Below are positions 5,331 through 27,480 of a stretch of 50,523 nt of DNA, in pieces. Under the pieces are notes generated by a model, which saw only the letters and a list, made by a program, of their open reading frames with translations, made no database searches and was not told where the DNA came from. The translations under genes were made by a program, and so were the position numbers. Source of the DNA: Mycobacterium colombiense (GTDB lineage Bacteria; Actinomycetota; Actinomycetes; Mycobacteriales; Mycobacteriaceae); assembly GCF_001953985.1 (NCBI RefSeq), contig NZ_MBEI01000040.1:1-50523 (forward strand), given 5' to 3'. Position 1 is the stretch's first letter. Each line of letters begins with the position of its first letter.

Positions 5331-6389
5331 GTGACGGCTTTGGAGACCACCGAAGAGTTCACCGAACGAATCACCGCGGCCATCGACGGCGCCAGCCTGA
5401 CGCTGTTGCTCAGCATCGGGCATCAGACCGGGCTGCTGGACACGATGGCCGGACAGGCACCGGCCACCAGCCAGCAGATCGCCGAGGCGGCCGGGCTCAA
5501 CGAACGCTACGTCCGGGAGTGGCTGGCCGGCATGACCACCGGACGCGTCGTCGACTACGACCCCGGCACCGGGACCTACTCGTTGCCCGCGCAGCGCGCC
5601 AAGGTGCTGACGCGTGAGGCCGGGCCGGACAACTTGGCCCTGGTGACCCTGCTCGTTCCGGTGCTCGCCGAGGTCGAACAGAAGATCATCGGGTGCTTCC
5701 GCGCCGGGGGCGGGCTGCCGTACAGCGAGTTTCCCCGCTTCCACGCGTTGATGGCCGAGCAGAGCGGCGTCGTGTACGACACCGCGTTGGTCGACGTGGT
5801 GTTGCCGTTAGTGGACGGCCTCGTGGAGCGGCTGCGGTCCGGAGCCGACGTGGCGGATTTCGGCTGCGGCAGCGGACACGCCATCAACGTGATGGCACAA
5901 GCGTTTCCGGCCAGCCGCTTCACCGGCATCGACTTTTCCGAGCAGGCCATCGCCACCGGAATCGCGGAAGCCGCCGAGCGGGGCCTGTCCAATGCCGCCT
6001 TCGAAAGCCACAATCTCGCTGATTTGGACAAGGCAGACGCCTACGACGTCATCACCGTCTTCGACGCCATCCACGATCAAGCGCAGCCGGCGCGAGTCCT
6101 GGAGAACATCTATCGCGCGCTGCGCCCCGGCGGTGTGCTGCTGATGGCCGACATCAAGGCGTCGAGCCGGCTCGAGGAGAACGTCGGCGTCCCGATGAGC
6201 ACCTACCTCTACACGACGTCGCTGATGCACTGCATGACGGTGTCGCTGGCGCTGGACGGCGCCGGGCTGGGCACCGCCTGGGGGACGCAACTGGCGGTCT
6301 CGATGCTGGGCGATGCCGGGTTCGGCGACGTGAGCGTGGCCGAGATCGAGTCGGACCCGATCAACAACTACTACATCGCCCGGAAGTGA
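5331..6389 (+). CDS. SAM-dependent methyltransferase with winged-helix N-domain (Rv2258c-like)
   Basis: A 352-aa protein. The N-terminal ~90 residues form a winged helix typical of O-methyltransferases ([14 protein letters not shown], then [15 protein letters not shown]). The SAM-binding motif [14 protein letters not shown] and the acidic [11 protein letters not shown] follow in the middle. Length and layout match M. tuberculosis Rv2258c. The substrate is unknown. The GTG at 5331 begins [10 protein letters not shown]; further in-frame upstream sequence would overlap the divergent mscR start. The stop TGA overlaps the ATG of the next gene (TGATG), so the two are coupled. Confidence 0.85.
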
Positions 6390-25373: not shown

Positions 25374-25796
25374 GTGGTCGCGGCGGATCACGCCCCGAGC
25401 TACGCCCGCAAATTGGGCATCCAACGGGACCAAGTTGTCCAGGAGTGGGGCTGGGACGAAGACACCGATGACGAGATCCGCGCCGCGGTCGAGGAAGCCT
25501 GCGGCAGTGACTTGCTCGACGAGGACACCGACGAGGTGGTCGACGTCGTGCTGCTGTGGTGGCGAGACGGTGACGGCGATCTGGTGGACACCCTGATGGA
25601 CGCGATCGGCCCGCTGGCCGAAGACGGCGTGATCTGGGTGCTGACGCCCAAGACCGGCAAGCCGGGTCACGTACTGCCGGCCGAGATCGCCGAGGCCGCC
25701 CCCACCGCCGGTCTGATGCCGACCTCGTCGGTCAACCTGGGTGACTGGAGCGCCAGCCGGTTGGTGCAGCCCAAATCCCGTGCCGGGAAGCGTTGA
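25374..25796 (+). CDS. DUF3052-family protein (Rv2239c-like)
   Basis: A 140-aa small acidic protein with blocks SYARKLGIQRDQVVQEWGWD, DVVLLWWRDGDGDLVDTLMD and GVIWVLTPKTGKPGHV, the pattern I associate with actinobacterial DUF3052. There is no signal peptide. GTG 25374 follows a strong AGGAGG (7-base spacer). Its TGA overlaps the ATG of ahpE (TGATG), so it is translated together with the peroxiredoxin. This pairing is conserved in M. tuberculosis, but its role in peroxide defence, if any, is not known to me. Confidence 0.85.
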   Translation: MVAADHAPSYARKLGIQRDQVVQEWGWDEDTDDEIRAAVEEACGSDLLDEDTDEVVDVVLLWWRDGDGDLVDTLMDAIGPLAEDGVIWVLTPKTGKPGHVLPAEIAEAAPTAGLMPTSSVNLGDWSASRLVQPKSRAGKR

Positions 25797-26257
25797 TGCT
25801 GCCCGTCGGCACAACCGCCCCGGATTTCACTTTGCGCGACCAGAACCAACAACGCGTCACGTTGAGTTCCTATCGGGACGCCAAGAACGTTCTGCTGGTG
25901 TTCTTCCCGCTGGCCTTCACCGGGATCTGCCAGGGCGAGCTGGACCTGTTGCGTGACCACCTGCCCGAGTTCGAAAACGACGAGAGCGCGGCGCTGGCCA
26001 TCTCGGTGGGCCCGCCGCCCACGCACCGGGTCTGGTCGCTGGACAGCGGCTTCACCTTTCCGGTGCTGTCGGACTTCTGGCCGCACGGCGCGGTCAGCCA
26101 GAGCTACGGCGTGTTCAACGAGGACGCCGGCTACTCCAACCGTGGGACGTTCGTCGTCGATCGGTCCGGGATCATCCGCTTCGCCGAGATGAAGCAGCCC
26201 GGCGAGTCCCGCGACCAGCGGCTCTGGACGGACGCCCTGGCGGCCTTGCGGGCCTGA
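25796..26257 (+). CDS. ahpE: One-Cys peroxiredoxin AhpE
   Basis: A 153-aa peroxiredoxin, identical in length to M. tuberculosis AhpE (Rv2238c). The peroxidatic Cys45 is in FPLAFTGICQGELD, and the active-site Arg is in NRGTFVVDRSG. It reduces H2O2, peroxynitrite and lipid hydroperoxides, with mycothiol/mycoredoxin-1 as the recycling system (known for the family). ATG 25796 overlaps the DUF3052 stop; a TTG one codon earlier is less likely. tRNA-Val follows 54 bases later. Confidence 0.96.
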   Translation: MLPVGTTAPDFTLRDQNQQRVTLSSYRDAKNVLLVFFPLAFTGICQGELDLLRDHLPEFENDESAALAISVGPPPTHRVWSLDSGFTFPVLSDFWPHGAVSQSYGVFNEDAGYSNRGTFVVDRSGIIRFAEMKQPGESRDQRLWTDALAALRA

Positions 26258-26311: not shown

Positions 26312-26386
26312 GGGCGCGTAGCTCAGTGGTAGAGCTCTGGTTTTACACACCAGCGGTCGGCGGTTCGATACCGTCCGCGCCCACCA
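26312..26386 (+). tRNA. tRNA-Val (anticodon TAC)
   Basis: A full cloverleaf is visible: acceptor GGGCGCG/CGCGCCC, D-arm GCTCAGTGGTAGAGC, anticodon stem CTGGT/ACCAG around loop TTTACAC (anticodon TAC, Val), T-arm with TTCGATA, discriminator A, and encoded CCA at 26384-26386. An M. tuberculosis Val tRNA is known near ahpE, as best I recall. The DNA immediately downstream is accessory, consistent with tRNA-linked insertion. Confidence 0.95.
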
Positions 26387-26514
26387 ACGTTGTTGCAGTT
26401 CAGCGTCGCAAGACGAGTCGGCCGGGTTTGGCGGGCAAACCCTGTGAACTGTTCGGCCTTGACTGAATTCTTCGAATGTGGTGGCGCCGAGCTTCCCAGA
26501 GTTACTCTTTGCCC

Positions 26515-27480
26515 ATGATCGCGGGCGAGAAGGCGCCTGACTTCACTCTTTACGATCACACCGGTCGGCCCCAGGCGCTGTCGGCGCTCCTGGCCGACGG
26601 GCCGGTTGTCCTATTCTTCTTCCCACTGGCCTCCTCACCGATCTGTACGGCCCAGGCCTGTCATTTTCGGGACCTGAGCAACGAATTCGTCACCGTGGGC
26701 GCCCAGCGGGTGGGCATCAGCACCGACACCGTCGACAGGCAGGCCCACTTCGCCCAACAGCGCTCGTTCGACTATCCACTGCTCTCCGACGCGGACGGCG
26801 TGGTGTCCGAGCTGTTCGGGGTGCGCCGGGGCAGGCTCGCCAAGCTGAGTAGATCCGTCGTGGCGCGTGAGGCGGCCCGGCGAGGCCGGCACACTCGGCG
26901 CCGCGGCCTGCTGGCCCGGCTGCTGCCGGTCAGACGGACCACGTTCGTCATCGACACCGATCGCACCGTACTCAAGGTGGTTTCCAACGAGCTTCGAGCA
27001 TCCGTGCACGCCGACCAGACCTTGTGGTTCCTGCAGCACCGCAAGGGACTGCATAGTTCGCCGCACGCCGGCGGAAAGGATTCCGACGCACACCAGCGGC
27101 CGGGGGACGAGGGCAGCGAGCGGGAAGCCGCGGGCGAGGCGAGCCTGGTGCGGCCATACACGCTGACGGGAGGCCACACCGACTCTGGTGTCGAACTGCC
27201 ACTCGAAGCTCCGGTCGAAGCGCTCAACACCACATCGAAGCCGCCGCGCTGGCCGAGAAACGATGTGCGGGGCCAGATCCTGGCGTTTTGCGTGCAGAGC
27301 CCTTCGGTCGCAGAGATCGCCGCTCGGCTCTCCTTGCCGCTCGGTGCGACGCGGTTCCTGGTCGGCGAACTGGTGTCACAAGGTTATTTGCGGGTGCACG
27401 CCCCCCTCGGTGACTCGATGACGATCGACCAACGGCGTGAACTGATAGGCAGGACCCTAGGTGGCCTGCGAGCGCTCTGA
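26515..27480 (+). CDS. Peroxiredoxin (BcpB/PrxQ-like) fused to a DUF742-like C-terminal domain
   Basis: A 321-aa two-domain protein. Residues 1-177 are a PrxQ/Bcp peroxiredoxin: APDFTLYDHTGRPQ, peroxidatic Cys44 and a second Cys49 in SPICTAQACHFRD (the C-x4-C spacing of atypical 2-Cys PrxQ), SDADG, and RTTFVIDTDR with the active-site Arg. An Arg-rich insert of about 30 residues (108-138) splits the usual fold. A hydrophilic linker (178-210) leads to residues 211-298, which match DUF742 as I know it: LVRPYTLTGGHTDS, VELPLEA, SVAEIAARLSLPLGATRFLVGELVSQGYLRVH. DUF742 proteins are the CvnC part of roadblock/DUF742/GTPase 'conservon' operons, and this fusion is unusual. ATG 26515 is preferred over an upstream ATG at 26476. 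No partner conservon genes lie nearby. Confidence 0.8.
   Translation: MIAGEKAPDFTLYDHTGRPQALSALLADGPVVLFFFPLASSPICTAQACHFRDLSNEFVTVGAQRVGISTDTVDRQAHFAQQRSFDYPLLSDADGVVSELFGVRRGRLAKLSRSVVAREAARRGRHTRRRGLLARLLPVRRTTFVIDTDRTVLKVVSNELRASVHADQTLWFLQHRKGLHSSPHAGGKDSDAHQRPGDEGSEREAAGEASLVRPYTLTGGHTDSGVELPLEAPVEALNTTSKPPRWPRNDVRGQILAFCVQSPSVAEIAARLSLPLGATRFLVGELVSQGYLRVHAPLGDSMTIDQRRELIGRTLGGLRAL

Follow-up and report, generated by a model that had tools for sequence, protein, structure and literature searches.

The window analysed here, a contig of 50,523 nucleotides from Mycobacterium colombiense (NZ_MBEI01000040.1, assembly GCF_001953985.1), carries at positions 26515-27480 of the forward strand a gene that is confirmed to encode one protein joining a PrxQ-type peroxiredoxin to a complete DUF742 domain. 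The enzyme family and the signalling domain are both known, but we did not find their combination in one protein described: a full-text literature search, with most subscription papers outside its reach, returned no peroxiredoxin-DUF742 fusion, and none is named in the titles or abstract openings of the six papers found to mention DUF742. We tentatively regard the fusion as a protein that partners an MfpB-type G-protein switch and responds to peroxide, a reading whose chances we place close to even and in which the coupling itself is what we infer. Its more specific form, a redox-gated exchange factor in which oxidation of C44 would switch the MfpC-type tail and thereby change the GTP state of a Ras-like GTPase (originally the partner encoded next to it, now MfpB), is rather improbable in our estimation. 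The simplest meaning of a peroxiredoxin attached to an MfpC-type domain, itself once accompanied by an mfpB-type gene, is that peroxide is made to act on that GTPase.

The open reading frame (ORF) contains no internal stop and specifies 321 amino acids plus the stop codon. An earlier sequence-only reading of the window had placed a PrxQ/Bcp head and a DUF742 tail in this one frame, and both assignments are borne out by Pfam and by structure prediction, the AhpC-TSA family matching residues 4-152 (E 5.6e-28, 97.8 bits, cut-off 26) and DUF742 (PF05331) matching residues 209-321 (E 5.4e-26, 91.1 bits, cut-off 27) over profile positions 4-114 of 114. The search for the same architecture that it had proposed, in which the 5-7 best candidates were scored per genome, found it conserved in Mycobacterium, with 34 of 297 genomes of the genus having it uninterrupted in a single reading frame (a single match in 32, two in-frame matches in G066 and in G028) and four more holding broken or partial copies (G129, G005, G257 and G148), while no full-length match was found outside the genus in samples of 298 genomes of the order (76 genera) and 396 of the phylum. 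Among the carriers are M. colombiense, M. shimoidei, M. fragae, M. moriokaense, M. tusciae, M. septicum, M. agri and Mycolicibacter longobardus, and the environmental species Mycolicibacterium neglectum likewise has an intact fusion. In a wider database search (7997 candidates scored), both domains were present in all of the 120 best of 1296 matches. Of the 36 genome contig loci L007-L042, 35 keep a single frame; L041 has two frames, and the 5' end of L023 lies off its contig. These two were omitted from the fusion alignment, which comprises the other 34 loci and the window (n = 35). Spread by plasmid or phage was considered and rejected, since no plasmid or phage record covered 80% of the protein (the peroxiredoxin part only was matched in two plasmid and four phage records).

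Damaged copies are also seen among the relatives. The two domains lie in separate frames in L043 (7848-8965), L041 (1-970) consists of two frames with the break within the peroxiredoxin domain, and M. kyorinense (L045, 5911-6795) retains the peroxiredoxin half with no DUF742 match. The sequence-only reading had named a stop codon between residues 178 and 210 in related strains as the mark of two genes joined by a sequencing error; the frame is lost there in L043 and in none of the 35 aligned fusions.

The peroxiredoxin domain occupies residues 1-177, insert included (26515-27045), as delimited by Pfam, PDB sequence match, structure prediction and fold search. Both C-x4-C cysteines and the RTTFVID motif, which the earlier description had picked out, are present, the former as C44 and C49 (codons at 26644-26661, invariant in 35/35 fusions) and the latter at residues 141-147; from knowledge of the PrxQ family we take C44 to be the peroxidatic and C49 the resolving cysteine. 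BcpB/PrxQ of Mycobacterium tuberculosis (PDB 5epf) shares the peroxiredoxin fold and is both the top PDB match by sequence (E 1.6e-49) and the closest by fold (Foldseek E 3.1e-20, template-modelling score 0.93 on the target). BcpB is, however, a stand-alone protein in which the segment before RTTFVID has 11 residues and a net charge of +3, whereas in the fusion this segment has 36 residues and a net charge of +12, corresponding to an insert of 25 residues. Taken over residues 104-141 (26824-26937), the basic arm carries a net charge of +14 in the window and of +12 to +16 across the 35 fusions, and its residues 107-134 are predicted to be disordered. Although the fusion does not reach the NCBIfam equivalog NF006960 for thioredoxin-dependent thiol peroxidase (84.6 bits, cut-off 140), its head is, judged by fold and cysteines, a PrxQ/Bcp enzyme. 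A free BcpB-type enzyme is also encoded in the same genome. Other peroxiredoxin fusions exist, such as the peroxiredoxin-nitroreductase protein (PDB 4eo3), in which a Bcp-type peroxiredoxin is joined to another enzyme; the DUF742 partner found here is instead of a signalling type and is not known to have any enzyme activity itself.

A linker of residues 178-208 (27046-27138), predicted to be disordered and 4-38 residues long in relatives, leads to the DUF742 domain at residues 209-321 (27139-27477), which is assigned to the MfpC type by Pfam, tree and structure model and includes a winged helix at residues 245-321. This half (residues 205-321) is 61% identical to the MfpC of the same genome, and of 60 positions conserved at 90% or more in 36 MfpC proteins, 32 hold the same residue at 90% or more in the 35 fusions. 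The recognition-type helix (residues 276-288; 27340-27378), delimited by conservation and the structure model, has A278 and T279 in 35/35 fusions and F281 in 91%, where MfpC has V (100%), A (86%) and V (100%), respectively. By these sequence comparisons, the partner surface of the tail is partly retained and partly rebuilt. The cysteines common to most fusions are C44 and C49 (35/35) and C259 (codon 27289-27291; 32/35). C259 was considered as a relay cysteine specific to the fusion and rejected as such, being ancestral (Cys in 36/36 mycobacterial MfpC). A structural search with the DUF742 model gave no match at E < 0.001, and the N-terminal third of the domain is shortened in L038.

In the structure prediction, which the sequence-only reading had suggested as a check, the peroxiredoxin outside the insert and the winged helix are modelled confidently; residues 107-134 and 182-222 have a predicted local distance difference test (pLDDT) score below 50, and no fixed orientation of the two domains is predicted (predicted template-modelling score, pTM, 0.54).

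Both the peroxiredoxin and the DUF742 domain are under purifying selection. Across the 35 fusions, the ratio of non-synonymous to synonymous polymorphism (pN/pS, from uncorrected counts) is 0.18 in the peroxiredoxin core, 0.43 in the insert, 0.31 in the C-terminal part of the peroxiredoxin, 0.74 in the linker, 0.58 in the N-segment of DUF742 and 0.32 in the winged helix; in 36 MfpC proteins the last two regions give 0.41 and 0.35.

To trace the origin of the two halves, trees were built for each. In the DUF742 tree (105 rows, 119 columns, inner forks weak), 43 fusion tails and the tail of the split L043 form one clade (support 100/99). This clade joins mycobacterial MfpC (99/98), leaving the other sampled DUF742 proteins outside; support for placing it inside rather than beside MfpC is only 87/21. 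In the tree of 94 peroxiredoxin rows, where the midpoint is set by the very long row L004 and the bootstrap is unsettled, the fusion heads also form one clade (99/91), in which the broken or contig-cut copies L043, L044 and L045 are included, so that the fusion label takes four changes on this tree. The nearest relatives of the heads are stand-alone, insert-bearing enzymes of Antrihabitans (99/82), followed by Rhodococcus KRD197 and G442 (99/92), while mycobacterial BcpB is separated from the heads by a branch with support 99/93. In Antrihabitans and Rhodococcus (L046, L047 and L050) and in G442 (L119), the stand-alone PrxQ enzymes carry a basic insert at the same place as the fusion, but they end after the peroxiredoxin domain, and DUF742 was not found in their loci. 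In three of them (L046, 8001-8555; L047, 8001-8543; L050, 8001-8516) the insert has a charge of +8 to +12. Because the trees place the heads with these DUF742-free enzymes of Nocardiaceae, it is likely that the basic insert arose first, in Nocardiaceae-type enzymes, and that DUF742 was added second and only once, in Mycobacterium.

A link between the fusion and a GTPase comes from the sequence downstream of it. In L041 (contig C712 of G005), the frame of an mfpB-like GTPase opens at GTG 954 and stays open past 1520; its product, with the P-loop GGFGAGKT, shares 72% identity with MfpB. The stop codon of the fusion lies at 971-973, giving a 20-bp overlap with the GTPase gene, and an identical 20-bp overlap is found in the conservon of the M. 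colombiense genome itself (L123), where mfpC ends at 5810 and mfpB starts at 5791. The same GTPase start is present in L016, followed by a brief readable stretch, a deletion and a stop, as in a decayed remnant. Among 35 fusions tried, L016 included, short vestiges of the GTPase start were detected 3' of the fusion in L009 and L025 (0/200 shuffles as good), and weaker ones in L040 (1/200) and L018 (3/200), with no correction for the number of tries. In a tree of 62 GTPases the linked protein falls within mycobacterial MfpB (99/98), with its exact position there not fixed, in parallel with the grouping of the tail with MfpC.

The sequence-only reading had supposed that a conservon GTPase would be encoded elsewhere, and the genome indeed holds a single mfp conservon with MfpB; roadblock and MfpB genes occur once each in the genome, and so does, the fusion aside, the DUF742 gene. 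The gene order in this conservon is kinase-like, roadblock, DUF742 and GTPase, the last three verified with Pfam; the kinase-like ORF, and a pentapeptide-like ORF after mfpB, are presumed to be such from their order and letters. Co-occurrence with roadblock and GTPase genes, which had been put forward as a further check, turned out to carry no signal: MfpB-type and roadblock genes are present in 38/38 genomes with a complete or partial fusion, yet MfpC-like proteins are so common (54 of 60 sampled mycobacteria) that this is uninformative by itself. G272, G290, G090 and G028 have a second copy of MfpB, in each case close to an additional roadblock gene. The fusion resembles MfpC/CvnC in the sequence of its tail and, in the one relative L041, in the mfpB-like gene that follows with the same overlap. 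MfpC, however, is a free protein of 122-124 amino acids within the mfp operon, whereas the fusion has its own promoter element, an altered recognition helix and no adjacent kinase or roadblock gene. By location, the fusion is not a member of a conservon (cvnA-B-C-D operon).

The simplest history, and the most likely one on the sequence evidence, is that the fusion formed inside a copied mfpC-mfpB pair, in which mfpC became joined to a peroxiredoxin, and that the linked GTPase was then lost in most lineages, including that of the window. From what is known of the family, C44 would react with peroxide and pair with C49, so that the head may sense or remove peroxide at a GTPase on which the DUF742 tail is predicted to dock. 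That partner would now be the MfpB of the single mfp conservon, the one obvious candidate in this genome. Since the tether is floppy and variable, action by proximity or redox relay is favoured over rigid allostery; for example, oxidation could be passed from the head to its own C259 or to C103 of MfpD, a position that is Cys in 36/36 mycobacterial loci. We also observed that position 116 of MfpB (L123, 5791-6378), which follows VVLVD, is Cys in 20/37 mycobacterial loci and in 0/26 other Mycobacteriales loci. Passages of PMC9769811 describe MfpD as the GTPase-activating protein (GAP) of MfpB and report that deletion of mfpC has a phenotype of its own, and PMC13015309 and PMC13343842 give MfpC, after Huang 2024, as the actual or likely guanine nucleotide exchange factor (GEF) of MfpB.

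Several observations weigh against a peroxide-responsive partner of MfpB. A GTPase adjoins the fusion in only one of the 38 genomes with a complete or partial fusion (G005), and this lone intact pair comes from a metagenome assembly in which the fusion gene is itself in two frames. The vestige is absent from the window (84/200 shuffles as good), and neither mfpD nor mfpE gave a match when 39 loci and the window were searched directly. With its linked partner lost in most lineages, the tail may have lost its function too; the N-segment of DUF742 is less constrained in the fusions than in MfpC (0.58 vs 0.41), and three residues of the recognition helix are switched relative to MfpC. The linker is disordered and of variable length, the predicted structure fixes no orientation of the domains, and C259 is older than the fusion and absent from three fusions. 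Moreover, one figure legend in PMC13015309 swaps the two roles, making MfpC the GAP and MfpD the GEF, contrary to the text of that article.

The same flexible linker and the unpredicted interdomain contact would suit a plain peroxidase for which the MfpC-like tail is an address only, placing the enzyme where it protects the GTPase or the conservon complex, with no signalling. The peroxiredoxin core is also the most constrained part of the protein, and a free BcpB-type enzyme is present in the genome as well. This explanation nevertheless leaves the fixed changes of the recognition helix without a reason, and MfpC-type genes occur in most sampled mycobacteria, mostly without a fusion; we consider it doubtful, about on a level with the redox-gated exchange factor. 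Those helix changes count instead for a protein that binds nucleic acid through its basic arm and winged helix, either as a tethered peroxidase or as a peroxide-responsive DNA- or RNA-binding regulator, in which the peroxiredoxin would protect the nucleic acid or gate the binding. The charge of residues 104-141 is strongly positive in 35/35 fusions, the structural matches include a yeast nuclear thiol peroxidase (2a4v), and DNA binding by DUF742 has been proposed in a passage of PMC8510531. The isolated DUF742 part also exceeds the HTH_IclR cut-off of 22, narrowly, at 23.0 bits, but the whole protein falls just under it (21.7 bits), as do the four other full-length fusions scanned (15.8-20.5 bits) and MfpC (15.8 bits). 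The winged helix carries only a mild positive charge (mean net +3.4), the basic insert is also found in the stand-alone Nocardiaceae enzymes that lack DUF742, and the linked GTPase and the published work on MfpC indicate a GTPase rather than DNA. We therefore hold nucleic acid binding to be unlikely, and somewhat more so than a mere address.

Less probable again is that DUF742 is a passenger, retained as a folding or dimerising tail whose function went once the linked GTPase was lost. The GTPase is missing from most lineages, the N-terminal third of the domain is less constrained and in one locus shortened, and broken copies occur now and then, all of which would fit; set against this, the winged helix is under purifying selection similar to that in MfpC (0.32 vs 0.35) across the 35 fusions, so that we give this explanation only a slight chance. 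An artefact of assembly or annotation that merged two genes could appeal to L043, with its halves in different frames, and to L041, with two frames inside the peroxiredoxin domain, but it is refuted by the conserved single frame, one protein being found throughout the 34 genomes of the genus and the 120 database matches, and by selection on both domains, and we see next to nothing left in its favour.

Regarding expression of the fusion gene, an ORF caller offers an alternative upstream ATG at 26476, but an in-frame stop is found at -12 to -10 relative to ATG 26515 in 20 of the 35 aligned fusions, and the start is for this reason placed at 26515, where the earlier description had put it. At -12 to -7 of this ATG lies the hexamer TACTCT (26503-26508, forward strand), a predicted -10 element of a leaderless promoter. 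The hexamer at this position fits TAnnnT in 35/35 fusions, the form given for the mycobacterial -10 motif (TANNNT) in part of PMC3898074, and four Shine-Dalgarno-like 4-mers looked for at -16 to -4 were found in none of the 35. The mean frequency of the top base in the fusion alignment is 0.91 in the last 20 bases 5' of the ATG, compared with 0.50 at -60 to -21 and 0.39 at -150 to -61. From the position of the -10 motif, the transcript of the fusion gene is probably leaderless.

Apart from the GTPase, the neighbouring genes vary among species groups, and the idea of a further operon partner common to them was rejected: nine proteins drawn from clusters of neighbours were tested and none is a conservon protein, their domains being kinase-propeller, DUF6542, YchF-type GTPase, enoyl-CoA hydratase, LGFP, hydrolase-cyclase and dehydrogenase, with two lacking any. 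The region upstream of the fusion differs even among close relatives; for instance, NmrA-like and DUF899 genes stand between tRNA-Val and the fusion in L010 (1510-4700), and ABC-transporter genes lie upstream of it in L008 (4079-7651). The tRNA-Val gene to which the sequence-only reading had drawn attention is present at 26312-26386, 128 bp upstream of the fusion gene, but the setting has no bearing on it and was set aside, given that among 80 loci (L007-L086) the tRNA is found in only four (L007, L009, L010 and L043). The 3' end of the tRNA does not recur elsewhere in the window. Just upstream of the tRNA, at 25793-26257, is a gene for a second AhpC-TSA protein (111.7 bits), which we take to be ahpE from gene order, and the tRNA is flanked by two different peroxiredoxins in the window and in the same four loci.

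How actinobacterial G-protein systems receive their sensory input was described in 2026 (PMC13343842) as largely unexplored. A natural fusion of a peroxiredoxin to an exchange-factor-like component, which in one relative still has an mfpB-like gene next to it, hints at the level of the genes that redox state can be such an input, an idea approachable with purified soluble parts. The fusion also puts a stepwise assembly on view, the basic insert probably coming before the MfpC-type tail. If the fusion were a redox-gated exchange factor, it would provide a soluble sensory input that bypasses the sensor kinase in an actinobacterial G-protein system, as well as a case of bacterial peroxide signalling through a Ras-like GTPase.
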